The position numbers were made by a program, and so were the translations under genes. The notes under the pieces are model-generated. The model worked only from the letters and a program-made list of their open reading frames with translations, ran no database searches and had not been told where the DNA came from. This document shows, in pieces, positions 2,869 through 12,346 of a stretch of DNA of 64,000 bases (positions within the stretch are counted from its first letter, which is position 1; every line of letters begins with the position of its first letter). This stretch comes from Fulvivirga sp. M361 (GTDB lineage: Bacteria; Bacteroidota; Bacteroidia; Cytophagales; Cyclobacteriaceae). The stretch spans positions 1 through 64,000 of the forward strand of contig NZ_VKDC01000012.1 of NCBI RefSeq assembly GCF_007097395.1, given 5' to 3'.

Positions 2869-5265
2869 ATGCTAGTAGTTAAAAGAGACGGAAGACGGGA
2901 GTCTGTTAAATTTGATAAAGTAACAGCCCGCATTGAAAAGCTATGTTATGGGTTGGACCGGAATTACATCGAGCCAGTAGACATAGCCAAAAAAGTAATT
3001 AATGGGATTTATGATGGCGTAACAACGGTAGAACTGGATAACCTTGCAGCTGAAACGGCTGCTTCCATGACCGTTAAACACCCGGATTTTGCCAAATTGG
3101 CTGCCAGGGTAGCTATATCCAACCTGCATAAAGTAACCAGTAAGTCTTTTTCCAATACTATGAAAAGACTTTACACTTATGTAGATCCAAAAACCGGGGA
3201 AAACGCACCGCTTATTTCAAAAGAAGCATATGGGGTTATAAAGAAAAGCGCGGCGCTCCTGGACTCTTCGATCATTTATGATCGCGATTTCGGTTATGAC
3301 TACTTTGGCTTTAAAACATTAGAAAAATCATACCTGATGAAGATAGACGGTATGATCGTTGAACGTCCTCAACATATGCTCATGCGGGTGGCTGTGGGTA
3401 TACATATGGAAGACATGGATGCAGTTATCGAAACGTATAACTTACTTTCTGAAAAGTGGTTTACGCACGCTACTCCTACCCTTTTTAACGCAGGTACGCC
3501 TAAACCTCAACTTTCGTCTTGCTTTCTGCTTACAATGAAAGATGACAGTATCGATGGGATCTATGATACACTGAAGCAATGTGCCAAAATCTCACAATCT
3601 GCCGGTGGAATAGGATTAAGTATCCATAATGTACGCGCTACCGGATCCTATATAAAAGGGACCGGAGGAGTATCTAACGGGATTGTTCCTATGTTAAGGA
3701 ATTTCGATATGACAGCACGCTACGTAGACCAGGGAGGTGGTAAGCGTAAAGGTAGTTTCGCCATATACCTGGAGCCATGGCATGCGGATATCTTCGAATT
3801 CCTGGACCTTAAAAAGAACCATGGTAAAGAAGAACTTCGTGCCCGGGATTTATTCTACGCACTTTGGATCTCTGACCTGTTCATGAAAAGGGTGGAGAAC
3901 AATGACACTTGGTCGTTATTTTGCCCTAACGAAGCGCCCGGGTTAGCCGATAGCTATGGAGAGGATTTTGAAAGACTCTATTTAAAATACGAGAAGGAAG
4001 GACGTTACAGAAAGCAGGTAAAAGCACAAGATCTATGGTTTGAGGTATTAGAAGCACAAATAGAAACAGGTACTCCTTATATGTTGTATAAAGATGCCGC
4101 TAATAAGAAATCAAATCAGAAAAACCTGGGCACCATCAAATCCAGTAACCTTTGTACAGAAATCCTGGAATATACGGCACCTGATGAAGTAGCCGTATGT
4201 AACCTGGCGTCTATTGCATTACCCAAATTTGTTACTGAAGACGGTAAATTTGACCATCAAAAACTTTTTGAAATTACTAAGGTCATCACTAAAAACCTTA
4301 ATAAGGTTATTGATATCAATTACTACCCGGTGGAAGAGGCACGTAACTCTAACATGCGTCATCGTCCTATTGGAATAGGGGTACAAGGCCTTGCCGATAC
4401 TTTTATAAGCCTTAAAATGCCGTTTGAATCAGATGAGGCACATGGCTTAAATAAAGATATCCATGAAACCATCTATTTTGCAGCAATGAGTGCTTCTATG
4501 GAACTGGCCAAAAAAGATGGCTCTTATGAGACCTTTAAAGGCTCTCCTGTTTCTAAAGGTATCTTTCAATTTGACATGTGGGGTGTTACTCCTGACTCCG
4601 GTCGATGGGACTGGGACAGCCTGAAAAAAGAAGTGAAGAAAAATGGTGTACGTAACTCCCTTTTATTAGCACCAATGCCTACAGCTTCTACTTCACAGAT
4701 ATTAGGCAATAACGAGTGTTTTGAGCCTTATACTTCTAACATTTATACGAGAAGAACATTATCCGGTGAGTTTATTGTAGTAAATAAACACTTGATGAAA
4801 GATCTCATAGCACTGGGAATGTGGGATGAATCCATGAAAAACCGATTGATAGAAGCCAATGGTTCTATTCAAAACATCCCTGAAATACCTCAGCACATTA
4901 AAGACATCTATAAAACTGTTTGGGAGATCTCACAGAAAGCCATCATTGACATGGCTGCTGACCGTGGCGCATACATTTGCCAAAGTCAGAGTATGAACAT
5001 TCACATACAAGATCCGAACTTCGGTAAACTAACGTCTATGCATTTTTATGCATGGAAAAAGGGCCTGAAAACGGGCATGTACTACCTGAGATCAAAAGCA
5101 GCTACCAGTGCTATTCAGTTTACTGTGGAAAAAACAGCAGCACAGGAACAGCCAAAAGTCAAAGGCACTATAGCAGAAAGAGAAGAAGCTGCATTGGCCC
5201 AAAAGCAAGCTGATATGGTTTGTTCATTGGATAACCCTGATGAATGTGAAGCTTGTGGAAGCTGA
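2869..5265 (+). CDS. nrdA: Class Ia ribonucleotide reductase alpha subunit
   Basis: Catalytic large subunit of ribonucleoside-diphosphate reductase. The 798 residues start with an ATP-cone-like regulatory domain (residues about 1-95, beginning [11 protein letters not shown]). The catalytic barrel follows, with the SSCFLL and NLCTEI motifs carrying active-site cysteines and the N-x-C-x-E radical triad, and [10 protein letters not shown] carrying the partner cysteine. The C-terminus ends in a CEAC pair, the mobile dithiol that re-reduces the active site through thioredoxin or glutaredoxin. Length fits the family. It lies downstream of nrdB, the reverse of the enterobacterial nrdA-nrdB order, and a strong terminator follows. 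Confidence 0.97.
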
Positions 5266-5290
5266 TACTAAGTGAATAAAATAATTGTGA

Positions 5291-5320
5291 AAGTCCCGGA
5301 TATTGTTCGGGACTTTTTTA
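5291..5320 (+). terminator. Intrinsic terminator of nrdBA
   Basis: AAGTCCCG (5291-5298) pairs perfectly with CGGGACTT (5308-5315) across a 9-base loop and is followed directly by more T. It lies 26 bases past the nrdA stop. Confidence 0.85.
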
Positions 5321-5460: not shown

Positions 5461-5491
5461 TTTGACATTTTAATATTATCGTTTAGCTTCG
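5461..5491 (+). promoter_or_regulatory. thr operon promoter (Bacteroidota consensus)
   Basis: TTTG at 5461-5464, then exactly 19 bases, then TAGCTTCG at 5484-5491. This matches TTTG-N19-TAnnTTTG with one mismatch. Transcription would start near 5497, about 60 bases before the leader peptide and about 200 bases before thrA, so a long leader RNA is made. Confidence 0.65.
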
Positions 5492-5555
5492 CCTTATCAA
5501 AAGAAATAATGTTCTGCAAGTGAAGAATATAGCAAAATATCCTATCTCACATCAG

Positions 5556-5621
5556 ATGATCAGCCGATCTGCTTGCACTACTATTATTACAACTACTATT
5601 ATCACCCCTTTACGGGGTTAA
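5556..5621 (+). CDS. thrL: thr operon leader peptide (Thr/Ile-rich)
   Basis: A 21-codon ORF between the thr promoter and thrA encodes MISRSACTTIITTTIITPLRG and then a TAA stop. Ten consecutive codons (8-17) are all Thr or Ile: six Thr and four Ile. The composition parallels the enterobacterial ThrL leader, where ribosome stalling at Thr and Ile codons prevents transcription termination. Thr and Ile are the end products that should control this pathway. A small hairpin overlaps its last codons. The ORF, its composition and position are seen directly; the attenuation role is inferred by analogy. Confidence 0.8.
   Translation: MISRSACTTIITTTIITPLRG
5604..5618 (+). promoter_or_regulatory. Hairpin at the end of the thr leader ORF
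   Basis: ACCCC (5604-5608) pairs with GGGGT (5614-5618) over a 5-base loop, inside the last five codons of the leader peptide. A ribosome finishing the leader would melt it, while one stalled on the Thr/Ile codons would not cover it fully. No strong T-run follows, so whether this is terminator, anti-terminator or pause hairpin is open. ACAACT (5589-5594) can also pair with AGTTGT (5655-5660), a possible competing fold. Confidence 0.4.
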
Positions 5622-5698
5622 TTACTACATATCGCCAAAGGCATAAGCCGACTCAGTTGTTCTCATAACACGTATTATTCACCACCAAGATCTTAATT

Positions 5699-8140
5699 AT
5701 GTTGGTCATTAAATTTGGAGGGACTTCAGTAGCCTCCGCTAAAAATATTGCTTTAGTAAAAGACATTATCCAGGAAAAAGACACGCCACTCATCGTAGTA
5801 GTTTCTGCACTGGGAGGTATTACCAATAAGCTGGTAGAATGTAGCACACTGGCTTCCAACGGAGACGAAGAATATCTCAAACTATTCAGCCAGATTGATC
5901 AGAAGCATCTGGAAACTATCAAGGAGCTAATATCAGTCAAAAATCAGGGCAAAACACTCAGTAAAATAAAGATCATATTAAATGAACTGGAAGATATCTG
6001 CCGCGGTGTATTCCTGATCCATGAGCTAAGCGCAAAGACAAAAGATAAGGTGCTTAGTTTTGGAGAACGGTTATCTGCCACCATTATTAGTGATTATTTT
6101 GCTGATCAGGGTATAAAAACTGAATTGGCGTCACCTGAAACCTTCATTAAAACAGACAGTAATCACGGGCGTGCCAATGTAGATTTCTCTGATACACGCA
6201 AAGAAATAGCCGCCTACTTCCGGGGAAGCACAGGCTTATGGATATGTCCTGGCTTTATAGCCTCCGATAAAAATGGAGAAACAACTACCTTGGGAAGGGG
6301 GGGCTCTGATTATACAGCAGCAATACTGGCAGCCAGTTTAAAAAGTGAAAAGCTAGAGGTCTGGACGGATGTAAGTGGTATGATGACTGCCGACCCGCGT
6401 TGGGTACGTGCGGCATATGCCATAGAACACATTTCCTACGAAGAGGCCATGGAGTTGTCACATTTTGGAGCAAAAGTGATCTATCCCCCAACCATACAGC
6501 CGGTACTGGAAGCTAATATTCCGATTTACATCAAAAACACATTCCAAAAAGAAGATAAAGGCACTGTTATCTCAAGTCGCATCCACGAAAATGGTCCGTT
6601 GATCAAAGGGCTTTCCTGTGTTCATAATGTAGCTCTGTTCAACTTTGCAGGTAGTGGAATGGTGGGTATTCCTAATTTCTCACATCGCTTATTCCGTGCG
6701 CTATCATCTGCAAAGGTCAGTGTAATTCTGATTACACAGGCATCTTCCGAACACTCTATTTGCATAGCTATCGACGCGGGCAACAGCGAAGTGGCCGGAA
6801 AGTCTATAGAACAGGAGTTTGAATACGAACTAAGCACACATAAGATCAATCCACTGGAAATTGAAAAAGACCTGTCTATCATTGCTCTGGTGGGTTCAAA
6901 AATGAAAGAGCAAGTAGGCGTAAGTGGACGTATGTTTAGTGTATTAGGTCAAAATGGGGTCAATATCAAAGCCATTGCACAAGGCTCTTCCGAAAAGAAC
7001 ATCTCCGTGGTGGTTAACGCAAATGAAACTAAAAAAGCGCTTAACAGCCTCCATGAAAGCTTCTTTCTCTCTGAGCAAAAAACCCTTAACCTGTTCATGA
7101 TAGGAGTAGGAAATGTCGGTGGTACGTTGATCGATCAATTGAACCAACAAAAAGCTTACCTGTCAGAACATCACCGCGTGAATTTGCGAGTCGTAGCGCT
7201 TGCCAATAGTAAGAAAGCCTACTTTGAACCTACCGGCATAGACCTGGACCGTTGGAAAGATGATCTGGACAGCGAGGGCACCAAAATGTCAACCGATGAA
7301 TTTGTGAAAACCATGGCTGAGTTGAATATGCGTAACAGCATTTTTGTAGACAATACTGCTCATGAAGAAATTGCCAATGTCTATGAACAAGTACTAGGAG
7401 AAAGTATTTCGGTAGTTACTCCAAACAAAATAGCCTGTACACAAAACATTGAAAGATATCGTTCACTAAAACAAACAGCCCGACGTTATGGGGCAAAGTT
7501 CCTGTTCGAAACTAATGTGGGTGCCGGCCTGCCTGTCATCAACACCTTGAATGATCTTATCAAAAGTGGTGATGAAGTACTAAAGATAGAAGCTGTACTT
7601 TCCGGTAGCCTCAATTTCATATTCAACAATTTCAATGATAATGTCAAATTTGTTGACATCGTTAAACAAGCCCAGGTAGAAGGGTACACAGAGCCCGATC
7701 CAAGAATAGACTTAAGTGGTGTGGATGTTATGAGAAAGATCCTGATCCTGATCCGCGAAAGTGGACATGAAATGGAACTGCATAATATAAAAAGTGAGCA
7801 ATTTATTCCTGAGGTATGTATGGATGCTCCAAGTATAGATGATTTTTTCACTGAGCTGGCCGGCCAGGAAGAAGTATTCCGGAAGATGTTGGAAAAGGCA
7901 CGTACTGAGAACAAACAGATCAAGTATGTCGCCACATTTAACCAGGGTAAGGCAGAAACCGGCGTGAAGTTCATTAGCCCCGACCACCCTTTCTATAACC
8001 TGGAAGGCAAAGACAATATTGTATTGTTTACCACGAAACGCTATGAAGACCAGCCATTGGTCATCAAAGGTGCCGGTGCCGGAGCTGCTGTTACAGCGAT
8101 GGGGATTTTTGGTGACATAATGCGTATCGCTCATGAGTAG
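5699..8140 (+). CDS. thrA: Bifunctional aspartate kinase / homoserine dehydrogenase I
   Basis: Catalyses the first and third steps from aspartate towards threonine: phosphorylation of aspartate and NAD(P)H reduction of aspartate semialdehyde to homoserine. The 813-residue protein has the N-terminal kinase motif KFGGTSVAS at residue 5 and the LGRGGSDYTAA loop near 200. Regulatory ACT domains lie at about 310-455. The dehydrogenase Rossmann motif IGVGNVGG starts near 460, and the homoserine dehydrogenase signature (ETNVGAGLPVINTL) near 600. Length equals the ThrA/MetL class. It overlaps thrB by 8 bases. Position behind a Thr/Ile leader supports ThrA rather than MetL. Confidence 0.96.
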   Translation: MLVIKFGGTSVASAKNIALVKDIIQEKDTPLIVVVSALGGITNKLVECSTLASNGDEEYLKLFSQIDQKHLETIKELISVKNQGKTLSKIKIILNELEDICRGVFLIHELSAKTKDKVLSFGERLSATIISDYFADQGIKTELASPETFIKTDSNHGRANVDFSDTRKEIAAYFRGSTGLWICPGFIASDKNGETTTLGRGGSDYTAAILAASLKSEKLEVWTDVSGMMTADPRWVRAAYAIEHISYEEAMELSHFGAKVIYPPTIQPVLEANIPIYIKNTFQKEDKGTVISSRIHENGPLIKGLSCVHNVALFNFAGSGMVGIPNFSHRLFRALSSAKVSVILITQASSEHSICIAIDAGNSEVAGKSIEQEFEYELSTHKINPLEIEKDLSIIALVGSKMKEQVGVSGRMFSVLGQNGVNIKAIAQGSSEKNISVVVNANETKKALNSLHESFFLSEQKTLNLFMIGVGNVGGTLIDQLNQQKAYLSEHHRVNLRVVALANSKKAYFEPTGIDLDRWKDDLDSEGTKMSTDEFVKTMAELNMRNSIFVDNTAHEEIANVYEQVLGESISVVTPNKIACTQNIERYRSLKQTARRYGAKFLFETNVGAGLPVINTLNDLIKSGDEVLKIEAVLSGSLNFIFNNFNDNVKFVDIVKQAQVEGYTEPDPRIDLSGVDVMRKILILIRESGHEMELHNIKSEQFIPEVCMDAPSIDDFFTELAGQEEVFRKMLEKARTENKQIKYVATFNQGKAETGVKFISPDHPFYNLEGKDNIVLFTTKRYEDQPLVIKGAGAGAAVTAMGIFGDIMRIAHE

Positions 8141-9062
8141 TAGATCAATCAGGATATTTGCCCCTGCTACAGTGGCCAATGTGGGCCCTGGATTTGATGT
8201 ATTGGGGCTGGCATTAGAAGGAATTGGTGACGAAATAGCCATGTCACTTACTTCTGAACAAGGTATAAAAATAGCCATACCTGAATCGGACTTGCCTACT
8301 GATCCAAAGGTGAATGTAGCCGGTGTTGCAATACAAGCGCTGTTAGATGACCTGAATTCATCACAGGGGGTGGATATGACCATCTATAAAAAAGTACTCC
8401 CTGGCAGTGGGCTAGGTTCCAGCGCCTCCAGTTCTGCAGGCGCTGTCTTTGCCGTTAATGAGTTACTAGGCAGGCCTTTTTCGAAACAAGAACTTGTTAA
8501 ATTTGCCATGGCTGGTGAGGCTGCCTCCTCTGGAAAAGCACATGCTGATAATGTAGCTCCTTCCCTTTTAGGGGGTTTTACACTGGTAAGAAGTTATGAC
8601 CCGCTGGATGTAATCAGTCTTGCCTATCCGGATGACCTTATTGTGGTAGTAGTACACCCCCAGATCGAAGTAAAAACATCTGACTCCAAAAAAATATTAA
8701 GAAAAGATGTACCGCTGGAAACGGCTATTGCACAATGGGGAAACCTTGCCGGATTGGTTTCCGGGCTTGCCTCATCAGATCACTCATTGATCAGCAGGTC
8801 ATTACAAGACCTTATCGTAGAACCTGTACGATCCATGTTAATTCCGGCGTTTGACCAACTCAAAATAGCCGCCAAAGCGGGTGAAGCACTTGGGTGTAGT
8901 ATTTCAGGTTCCGGCCCTTCTGTATTCGCACTTTGTAATACTATGGAACAGGCTAGTCAAATTGGCAACGACTTTCAACAGATTTATGACGACCTTGCCA
9001 TTGAGCAACAGGTCCATATTTCAAAAATCAATACGGAGGGCGCCCAGATTATAAAAGGCTAA
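8133..9062 (+). CDS. thrB: Homoserine kinase
   Basis: GHMP-family kinase that phosphorylates homoserine to O-phosphohomoserine, the substrate of ThrC. The 309-residue protein begins with the typical FAPATVANVGPGFDVLG segment. The GHMP ATP-binding motif PGSGLGSSASSSAGA lies near residue 90, and the third motif GCSISGSGPSVFAL near 255. The start overlaps the thrA end by 8 bases, suggesting translational coupling. Length is normal for the family. Confidence 0.97.
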   Translation: MSSRSIRIFAPATVANVGPGFDVLGLALEGIGDEIAMSLTSEQGIKIAIPESDLPTDPKVNVAGVAIQALLDDLNSSQGVDMTIYKKVLPGSGLGSSASSSAGAVFAVNELLGRPFSKQELVKFAMAGEAASSGKAHADNVAPSLLGGFTLVRSYDPLDVISLAYPDDLIVVVVHPQIEVKTSDSKKILRKDVPLETAIAQWGNLAGLVSGLASSDHSLISRSLQDLIVEPVRSMLIPAFDQLKIAAKAGEALGCSISGSGPSVFALCNTMEQASQIGNDFQQIYDDLAIEQQVHISKINTEGAQIIKG

Positions 9063-9111: not shown

Positions 9112-10395
9112 ATGAAATTTTATAGTACTCATAGAGCAGTTGAAATGACTTCTTTTCGTGAAGCAGTCATCAAAGGTCTACCAGCGGATAACGGTCTTTT
9201 TATGCCGGAATCCATTCCTGCGCTTGATCAAGCGTTCTTGAATAACCTGGCGAATCTAAGTTTACCGGAAATTGCCCATACGGTGGCGCTACCCTTTGTA
9301 GATGGTGAGATACCCAGTGGGGTATTACAAACCATTGTAGAAGAAACACTGGCTTTTGCGCTACCTGTGGTAAACGTTCATGACAACATCTTTAGTCTCG
9401 AACTTTTTCACGGCCCTACCTGTGCTTTTAAAGATGTCGGCGCTCGTTTTTTAGCCCGGTGTCTGAGTCATTTTTCAGATGAAAAGGTGACCGTACTTGT
9501 AGCTACTTCAGGGGATACCGGCAGTGCAGTAGCAAATGGCTTTCTCGGAGTAGAAAATGTGGATGTCATCATACTGTATCCAAAAGGTAAGGTAAGTCAC
9601 TTACAGGAACAGCAATTGACTACGTTGGGGCAAAACATTACGGCACTGGAAGTCGAAGGCACATTCGATGATTGCCAAAGCATGGTCAAACATGCCTTCC
9701 TCGATAAAGAATTGAACAAAGCCATCAAACTTACTTCCGCCAATTCCATTAATATAGCCCGCCTGTTGCCACAATCGTTTTACTACTTCTGGGCCATGGC
9801 ACAGATGAAAGACCACGAAAAAGTGACATTTTCCGTACCTAGCGGGAACTACGGGAACCTGACCGCGGGACTACTGGCCAAATCAATGGGACTCAACATT
9901 CATGGTTTTGTGGCTTCATCAAATATCAACGATATCGTACCTAAATACATCAAGACAGGTTCTTTCGAATCAAAACCTTCCAAACAAACCATTTCCAATG
10001 CTATGGATGTTGGTAACCCAAGTAACTTCGGAAGGATGACAGAACTCTATGGACAGTCCTGGGAGAAGCTGACGGATAACATTACAGGTTTCAGCTATAA
10101 TGATCATGAAACCAAAACAGCCATGAAAGAGGTCTATGAACAATACAATTATGTATTGGATCCGCATGGAGCCGTAGGTTACCTCGGATTGACAGAGTAC
10201 CTCAAAAATAACAATGGTACTGGTGTCTTCCTGGAAACCGCTCATCCGGCTAAATTCATTGATACAGTCACCGAAGTAATTGGAGAAATAGAAATACCCG
10301 AGCGGCTAAGCGTTTACCTGGAAAAGGAAAAAAAGAGTACGCTTATAAGTAATTCTTATGGGGCGCTTAGAGCCTGTCTACTAGGGCAACATTAG
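9112..10395 (+). CDS. thrC: Threonine synthase
   Basis: PLP enzyme that converts O-phosphohomoserine to threonine. The 427-residue product has the PLP-lysine motif HGPTCAFKDVGARF with K107, and the phosphate-binding SGDTGSAVA loop near residue 135. It also has the family N-terminus FYSTHRAVEMTSFREAV. Spacing to thrB is 49 bases, so it completes a thrA-thrB-thrC operon under the same leader. The 427-residue length fits the E. coli-type enzymes. Confidence 0.97.
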   Translation: MKFYSTHRAVEMTSFREAVIKGLPADNGLFMPESIPALDQAFLNNLANLSLPEIAHTVALPFVDGEIPSGVLQTIVEETLAFALPVVNVHDNIFSLELFHGPTCAFKDVGARFLARCLSHFSDEKVTVLVATSGDTGSAVANGFLGVENVDVIILYPKGKVSHLQEQQLTTLGQNITALEVEGTFDDCQSMVKHAFLDKELNKAIKLTSANSINIARLLPQSFYYFWAMAQMKDHEKVTFSVPSGNYGNLTAGLLAKSMGLNIHGFVASSNINDIVPKYIKTGSFESKPSKQTISNAMDVGNPSNFGRMTELYGQSWEKLTDNITGFSYNDHETKTAMKEVYEQYNYVLDPHGAVGYLGLTEYLKNNNGTGVFLETAHPAKFIDTVTEVIGEIEIPERLSVYLEKEKKSTLISNSYGALRACLLGQH

Positions 10396-10558: not shown

Positions 10559-12346
10559 TTATTTTATGAAGATCATCTTTTTAGCATCGACGACCTCTCC
10601 ACTTGCTCTCAATTGATAGAAATACATTCCCGGAATCAACGCTTTGGTTATGATGACGTTGCTTTTAGTCCCTTTCTCTAAGCCCCCTTTTAATACTTCC
10701 TTGCCTGTTTTATCCATTAGAGACCAATCCATCTGTTTGGACAAAGCCTCTCTAAATTTTATAGTGAACTTACCTGTGGCGGGATTAGGGTAAACCGCTA
10801 TAAATGGATGGATATCCTCTTCTGATAGTGTTAAGGTTTTGGCGTTCTTCGATGCTTCTTCAATACGCGCTAATGATGGATTACAGTTTTTTTCATCTCC
10901 TACTATTCTCCAACCGTTCGTGTTGACCAAGCGGTTCCTGCCGGTTTCACCATGGCAATATTGAAGACCATGAGCCCCCAGTTCCATCTTGTCATTTAAA
11001 GAAGGTAACGCGGCCCACCCTGTCAATGTAGCTTCATAGTTATCTACAGAAAGGCCTGATGAGGATAGCATCTCCTTCATCTCCGAAACCTCATCGATAT
11101 CCCAGGAACCGATGTCCTGATCAAATGATGTGGCCTCTGCGAACATAAAGCTCATATTGGTAACACGCGACACATCCCAGTTCTCTATATTCTGGTTGAA
11201 CGAAAAAGCCGAATGAAACATATCACCCATACTCGTTACATTGCTTACCTCCCACGAGCTGATGTCCTGGTCAAAAGCAGAAGCTTCAAAAAACATTCCC
11301 CACATATCCGTGACGTTGCTTACATCCCAATTTCCTATGTCCTGGTTAAAAGAAGAGGCCTTAAAGAACATGCCAAGCATATCTGTTACATTACTTACCT
11401 CCCAACTCCCAATGGGCTGATCGAAAGCAGAAGCTAAACTGAACATATTACTCATATCCGTTACGTTACTTACCTCCCAATCCCCAATAGGCTGATTGAA
11501 TGCGGTTGCATTTATGAACATACCGGTCATATTGGTAACCTTACCTACATCCCAGTTCCCAATGCTCTGATTGAAAGAGGAAGCTACCCAAAACATATAA
11601 CTCATATCGGTGACGTTACCAACATCCCATGCACTGATATCCTGATCAAAGGTAGTGGCATCATCAAATAAAAAGCTCATATCCGTTACCCTGCTCACAT
11701 CCCAATTTCCGATGGCCTGGTTAAATGAAGTTGCCCTGCGAAACATATAGCTCATGTCGGTGACGTTACTGACGTTCCATGAACTGATATCCTGATTAAA
11801 GGCAGAGGCATCATCGAACAAAGAACCCATGTCCGTTACAGTACTCACATCCCAATGTCCAATGTACTGGTTAAGTGCCGTGGCCCAACGAAACATAGCA
11901 TTCATACTGCTTACATTTGAGAGGTCCGGAGCATCAGAAGCCAGTATTGTAAGGTTTGTACAGCCTGAAAACGCAGCTTCCATAGATTGCCAGGGATTGG
12001 TCCCCCATTGATCCACGCTCAGGAGTTTTTCCTTGTCATTTTCATTGTTAAAGTAGAGGCGTGGAAAATTACCCTGAATACTTACCCGGTAAGTACCGGC
12101 AACAGGAAAGGTGAGCACTGCATCCCCCCTAAAAGGACCAACCTTTCCCGTCAGGGAAGCATCATGTATATTGACCCAACTTACTGAATAATTATACCCC
12201 ATTCCCTCAGTCGGTATTCTGATCTGATTGTTCAAAGTCTTACCTGGATGATCTGTTTTCCAGGTAGTAATGAACGGAGTGCCCTGTTGAGCAAAAAGTC
12301 CGGGGCCTAAAAGACAGAATAAAATAGGATAAATGATCTGTTTCAT
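10559..12346 (-). CDS. BspA-like (DUF285) surface protein with T9SS sorting domain
   Basis: A predicted secreted surface protein of 595 residues. It has a signal peptide at about 1-20 (cut before QQGTPF). A beta-rich N-terminal domain at about 25-115 is shared with the protein at 49343-51628. Residues 157-431 hold eleven 25-residue repeats of the form FNQ-x-I-x-x-W-x-V-x-x-V-T-x-M-x-x-MF-x-x-A, the DUF285/BspA-like leucine-rich type. The C-terminal 80 residues begin YPNPATGKF and end MIFIK, a type A T9SS sorting domain that should export and attach the protein at the outer surface. Adhesion or ligand binding is a plausible role; nothing more specific can be read. Confidence 0.88.
11054..11878 (-). 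repeat. Eleven 75-bp tandem coding repeats (DUF285)
   Basis: Region encoding residues 157-431 of the BspA-like protein. The unit is 25 codons without indels, and copies differ at many silent and coding positions, so the array is diverged rather than freshly amplified. Confidence 0.8.

Follow-up and report, generated by a model that had tools for sequence, protein, structure and literature searches.

A threonine/isoleucine leader peptide and a conserved RNA element before thrABC in Fulvivirga sp. M361: a candidate attenuator without a U-tract

In Fulvivirga sp. M361 the thrABC operon is preceded by a leader open reading frame (ORF) with ten uninterrupted Thr/Ile codons, whose end runs into an RNA element of set order: a hairpin (P1) on the last codons or the stop codon, about 8 nt, the sequence CAUAUYRCC and a second hairpin (P2). 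We favour, with a probability of roughly 0.55, the reading that the whole is a ribosome-mediated attenuator of thrABC whose output does not depend on a U-tract. The sensor part is near certain on sequence grounds, and the tiny Thr/Ile-rich peptide probably gauges amino-acid supply. For the output step we infer a pause of RNA polymerase or the action of Rho as probable, just as we infer that ribosomes stall and in which direction control runs. A sensor of a well-known kind thus seems to drive a switch that is unfamiliar. In what follows, the window is the whole 64,000-nt stretch of DNA that was analysed.

The first-pass annotation had placed a 21-codon ORF, MISRSACTTIITTTIITPLRG*, at 5556–5621 in front of a thrABC operon. 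Both the operon, by the Pfam domains of its three products, and the Thr/Ile run were confirmed (Table 1), but the start codon was not. In an alignment of 11 sequences of the genus, the ATG at 5556 has no counterpart in any of the 10 relatives and was rejected as a conserved start, while the column of an in-frame GTG at 5520, which lengthens the leader to 33 codons, holds a start codon in 8 of the 11 (seven GTG, one TTG); the remaining three have a GTG shifted by one column. Because the start is conserved at the 5520 column and the ATG is unmatched, 5520–5621 is taken as the leader, with the GTG as its most likely start. Its stop codon lies 77 nt before thrA. Upstream, TTTGACA (5461–5467) and TATCGTTTAG (5477–5486) had been called a matching promoter. 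A promoter-like stretch is indeed present, but the match is weaker than claimed: a sigma-70-type scan, which does not cover the Bacteroidota promoter type, found nothing at 5461–5486 on the + strand, and the two boxes do no more than resemble the Bacteroidota consensus. A strong terminator-like hairpin (5289–5317, +) after the ribonucleotide reductase gene (2869–5265) separates that gene from the thr leader. On the other side of the operon, 10559–12346 (–) encodes, by ORF translation alone, a protein of 595 aa that carries numerous repeats of the WDVSxVTDM type and has a sorting-like stretch at its C-terminus.

Table 1. Features of the thr leader and operon, in window coordinates
Feature	Position	Strand	Basis
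Weak promoter-like stretch, TTTGACA ... TATCGTTTAG	5461..5486	+	sequence and genus alignment
Leader ORF, GTG start, 33 codons, MKNIAKYPISHQMISRSACTTIITTTIITPLRG	5520..5621	+	genus alignment
AATATC, degenerate version of the 5′ CAUAUC copy common in relatives	5536..5541	+	sequence
Hairpin P0, CAGAU...AUCUG, preceding the control codons	5553..5571	+	local fold z; no support from segment permutation
Ten consecutive Thr/Ile control codons	5577..5606	+	sequence
Hairpin P1, ACCCC-UUUAC-GGGGU, on the last codons	5604..5618	+	fold; permutation
CAUAUCGCC, conserved single-stranded motif	5628..5636	+	YATAY-selected and unselected counts
Hairpin P2, GGC-AUAA-GCC	5640..5649	+	model; permutation
thrA, fused aspartokinase-homoserine dehydrogenase	5699..8140	+	Pfam: AA_kinase, ACT, homoserine dehydrogenase
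thrB, homoserine kinase (GHMP)	8133..9062	+	Pfam: GHMP kinase
thrC, threonine synthase	9112..10395	+	Pfam: threonine synthase N-terminus, PALP

Conservation of the Thr/Ile run among relatives, the check that had been proposed for it, was examined in 203 distinct thrA upstreams: 80 named relatives, the genus loci, model hits and 100 chosen from a draw across the phylum. Eight loci were excluded as duplicates or a paralogue (seven genus copies and L003), as were L044 (a false anchor), L066 and L091 (doubtful) and L181 (no start detected). A short ORF with at least six Thr/Ile per ten residues was found in 124/203 upstreams and in 6/203 after shuffling; at eight or more per ten the counts are 75/203 and, for mononucleotide shuffles, 0.2 per 203. 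Kinship among the sequences inflates all of these counts, and the named relatives were picked by similarity to the ThrA of Fulvivirga sp. M361, so that leader counts are not phylum frequencies. The control runs hold Thr and Ile codons at 628:264, and ATT makes up 82% of their Ile codons versus 44% in thrA. By these data the Thr/Ile leader is real and conserved, and it passes the refutation that had been set for it, a lack of the run in relatives.

The 5-bp GC hairpin lacking a U-run that had been noted at the end of the ORF is likewise real; it is P1, one part of a larger element spanning 5602–5650. Of the 83 loci that were named or came from the genus, 69 received a leader-end anchor, one of them false, and, since this anchoring was selected on YATAY, the motif was tested again without that selection. 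A GC hairpin lies over the leader end in 108 of the 124 leaders, with the stop codon inside it in 93 of the 108. YATAY follows that hairpin by 4–20 nt in 102 of these 108, which were not selected on CAUAU, and occurs in 3, 5, 17, 7, 3 and 7 of them in six control windows. The linker from P1 to the motif is G-poor and measures 7–9 nt in 82 of 107 leaders.

Permutation of arms within groups indicates that those of P1 pair in cis (z –12.7, 107 leaders), the test being uninformative for P1 within the Fulvivirga/Marivirga group (+1.8). For P2 the corresponding z is –4.7 overall and –4.2 in the Fulvivirga/Marivirga group; in family f7 (+0.4) P2 was not seen and is either absent or different. The local fold z is about –0.95 over 107 leaders at the P0 position, where permutation gives –0.1. 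Aligning P2 proved difficult: MAFFT alone did so poorly, RNAalifold finding three pairs on its alignment, and a seed of 30 sequences was therefore chosen by geometry. In a pair-count alignment that was itself fitted to the resulting model (64 sequences, 62 distinct), paired cells amount to 86.8% (shuffled 80.2), cells changed on both sides to 32 (shuffled 9.3) and the covariation score to 0.247 (shuffled 0.149); the other two of the five covariation measures, pairs with double changes and pair types, are not above shuffles. Complementarity is also in excess between the 5′ UTR and the control run (z –5.7), between the P0 region and the 5′ arm of P2 (z –3.2) and between the 5′ UTR and that arm (z –3.2). 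Several Chitinophagaceae loci (e.g. L067, L059 and L025) have at the leader start a GTGGTA complementary to TACCAC in some control runs.

The CAUAU motif is unstructured (local fold z +0.36), and CATAT[CT] recurs in a window at the 5′ end of 49 of 107 leaders, where shuffles give a mean of 13.5 and a maximum of 22. A conserved, single-stranded sequence with a second copy upstream would suit a site for a regulatory protein, such as an RRM protein or a NusG-like factor, and the leader would then be a protein-assisted antiterminator. We regard this as very doubtful: the 5′ copy is degenerate in the window itself, with A in place of C, and we know of no CAUAU-binding protein of such a kind. The accessible part of a report on RbpB (PMC11697453) names no CAUAU site.

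Model R1, built from the 30 seed sequences, gives one match above noise in the genome of Fulvivirga sp. M361, at 44.8 bits; the next best reaches 17.6, and further copies of the element in that genome were rejected on this score. Across 394 genomes, 33 have a match at E≤0.01. Among the 32 that are not the genome's own, 26 matches precede thrA (25 of 29 fetched, and G259 by its coordinates), five do not, and one (G198) could not be placed. All 19 such matches at E≤1.1e-4 precede thrA, although one of the 19 (G296) is apparently identical with seed L043. The five matches not before thrA (L123, L125, L126, L128 and G299) are all weaker than this, and in G299 the match and thrA are on separate contigs. 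At E≤0.001, 2 of 242 genomes of the order are found; this is an undercount, since the element present in G004 (L010, 25.9 bits) escapes R1. In Rfam, the window has no match at the gathering cut-off and 11 CAUAU-class loci have none at E≤1.

What distinguishes the element is the part of an attenuator that was not detected. The leader has control codons cognate to the product and a hairpin 1:2 over the end of the ORF; an antiterminator pairing 2:3 and an intrinsic terminator 3:4 were not found in it. In a scan that allows simple stems only, two of the 68 named leaders reached a terminator-like score of at least 13 (0.7 expected), P1 itself being the scoring hairpin in each, and an overlooked simple terminator was rejected on this count. 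In f7 that score was reached in 2 of 17 leaders (0.2 expected), both times by upstream hairpins inside the leader ORF. The 3′ arm of P1 pairs with downstream sequence less than in shuffles (6.73 versus 7.35; scores of at least 10 in 1 versus 8 of 107), and the best such pairing in the window is 4 bp, so antiterminator pairing by this arm was rejected as well. To this extent the findings bear out the suspicion, raised when the leader was first noticed, of an output unlike that of enterobacteria.

It is scarcely credible, then, that this is an ordinary classical attenuator whose terminator the scan overlooked, there being no downstream partner for region 2 and, in the 68 named leaders, no scored terminator besides P1. 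Classical thr leaders do occur in the phylum, in families f4, f6 (g48), f46 and f2, and a few CAUAU leaders (L049, L059 and L131) have U's after P2, whose hairpins there may be weak terminators below the threshold. In f4, f6 (g48) and f46, Thr-rich leaders are followed by U-run terminators whose 5′ arm pairs over 6–10 bp with the leader end. The seven classical loci compared, from these families, were picked by eye for their terminators, so their terminator score of 7/7 gives no rate. Two f2 genomes, of the same order as Fulvivirga, combine a P1-like hairpin with a downstream pairing of 8 or 7 bp; the terminator is scored in L137 and not in L138, which has the pairing. Seven upstreams were read from family f1 outside the genus: six hold a Thr-rich ORF whose end is ACGGGG instead, and one has no clear leader.

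Read by eye, the trp, his and ilv leaders of the same genome (runs of WWW, HHHHH and IIVLVIINVIV) end in U-run terminators. The his leader, upstream of hisG on contig C66, encodes MTIISSTYHHHHHSIPDQARGSMC before its U-run terminator and also contains CATATCATC; on contig C72, before ilvE (about 756–960 of locus L247), the Ile/Val/Leu-rich leader MRNINIIVLVIINVIVKTAIGDR is accompanied by a U-run terminator; and a Bacteroid-trp-like WWW leader at C61:78690–78813 scores 41 bits, under the Rfam cut-off of 49.

We propose that the 33-codon leader is translated and that, when charged tRNA-Thr or tRNA-Ile is scarce, the ribosome would stall in the ten control codons; with ample supply it would go on as far as the stop codon, where P1 ends. 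Its position would set whether P1 forms, the 5′ arm of P1 containing the last control codon, and also whether the ribosome shields the G-poor control run or leaves it exposed. P1, the A/U-rich linker and CAUAU some 8 nt on could form a pause or release site for RNA polymerase, with P2 just downstream. Bare leader RNA would then lead to termination, probably by Rho, and a stalled ribosome would block it. If P1 formed while a ribosome was stalled on the earliest control codons, its effect would be the opposite, and the sign of control given here is accordingly tentative.

A transcriptional output is preferred because P1 sits where the fate of the ribosome is decided, because the fixed spacing of P1 and CAUAU and the G-poor linker resemble a hairpin pause, and because C outweighs G both in the control run and just before thrA. 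The C/G ratio is 2.9 in the control run, and 1.66 before thrA versus 1.17 in other thrA upstreams; as evidence for Rho, base composition is a weak pointer. Moreover, the ThrA of f2 is nested among those of the CAUAU class and its leader has a P1-like hairpin followed by classical antiterminator pairing, so a transcriptional output suits the CAUAU leader too.

Rho would be unneeded if P1 and the A/U-rich linker were by themselves a non-canonical, factor-independent terminator or long pause, a ribosome that stalls at the final control codons then blocking P1 and letting transcription continue. No local structure is stronger than P1 (z about –2.4, at sites that had been chosen by hairpin), and the G-poor linker, mostly 7–9 nt long, would fit this too. 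We nevertheless think it unlikely, as there is no U-tract, stalls at early control codons would leave P1 uncovered and, to our knowledge, RNA release at hairpins lacking a U-tract has no known case in Bacteroidota. Since the terminator scan found none, control might instead fall on how thrA is translated or how stable its mRNA is; the ribosome on the leader, or P1-CAUAU-P2 itself, would then make the thrA start more or less accessible or change the exposure of the RNA to nucleases. This is distinctly improbable: the unpaired value of the thrA start lies slightly above that obtained when upstreams are shuffled (0.56 versus 0.52), on which sequestration was rejected, and none of the element's landmarks emerges as a pairing partner of the start (z –0.8 for the 3′ arm of P2 with the start).

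CAUAU-type leaders group together on ThrA trees, whose rows and labels were picked by hand and in which Solitalea carries the CAUAU label without an R1 match. On a quick tree of 48 chosen rows that label needs 7 changes versus 16.2 when shuffled (0/500). A careful tree of 31 rows groups the ThrA of Fulvivirga and Marivirga with those of CAUAU-bearing Balneolaceae (support 100/97; the family, f24, is putatively so named), against taxonomy; uniting Fulvivirga ThrA with the other ThrA of its own family, f1, is rejected (p-AU 1.7e-5). Gene and leader seem to have travelled as a unit, through transfer or through an old duplication, and transfer of the thr operon of Fulvivirga/Marivirga is possible. 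The same tree puts the f2 ThrA within Chitinophagaceae (95/91), and f2 seems to have exchanged its output. The most far-reaching reading, which we hold only tentatively, is that P1-CAUAU-P2 is a hitherto undescribed, U-tract-independent polymerase-control module read by the ribosome, serving as the output part of amino-acid leaders. It would have accompanied the thr operon in its passage between lineages, Balneolaceae-like on one side and Cytophagales on the other, and been swapped for a classical terminator at least once, in f2.

In several Bacteroidota families the pathway is fitted with one and the same type of peptide, and related leaders have at least two outputs: a natural comparison in which an attenuator's output is swapped and its sensor retained, and a concrete test case for attenuation that does without a U-tract, in a phylum beyond the standard model bacteria. 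In itself, attenuation by leaders is already known from Bacteroidota, and a 2010 study by Lopatovskaya may report thr attenuators of Bacteroidetes. Bacteroid-trp is a prior case (PMC2864571), and PMC9723704 describes, in F. psychrophilum, clues upstream of amino-acid operons and conserved elements upstream of pheA, hisG and others. The P1-CAUAU-P2 thr element was found neither in Rfam nor in the available parts of the literature searched on Bacteroidetes thr and leader attenuation (including PMC6414381, PMC7366714, PMC4833913 and PMC2965389); that 2010 study or Table S7 of PMC9723704 could list thr leaders. A survey (PMC3766115) suggested that the amino-acid attenuators in Rfam may originate in Gammaproteobacteria, with few transfers.

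The nearest known system by content is the leader of the enterobacterial thr operon, Thr_leader (RF00506), which like ours is a Thr/Ile-rich leader peptide directly before thrABC; unlike it, the CAUAU-class leader has no 2:3/3:4 switch, no U-run and no match to its covariance model. The first-pass annotation had supposed independent or ancient attenuation of the pathway. Kin leaders do occur in several Bacteroidota families, some of them classical, and only the classical ones weakly resemble Thr_leader (two loci at 31.7 and 32.9 bits, under the cut-off of 55). Bacteroid-trp (RF01692) is likewise a control-codon leader peptide in Bacteroidota, but with Trp codons and a U-run terminator, neither of which is in the thr leader. 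The classical Bacteroidota thr attenuators share the Thr-rich leader before thrA and, in f2, the P1-like hairpin on the stop codon; they differ in their antiterminator pairing and in their U-run terminators (L138 excepted). The E. coli tna operon is controlled through TnaC in a Rho-dependent manner, the ribosome stalling at the TnaC stop codon by sensing free Trp. In both systems, on our proposal, a ribosome that has stalled would shield the leader RNA from Rho; the difference is that TnaC responds to a free amino acid at its own stop codon, and that for the thr leader a role of Rho is no more than probable.
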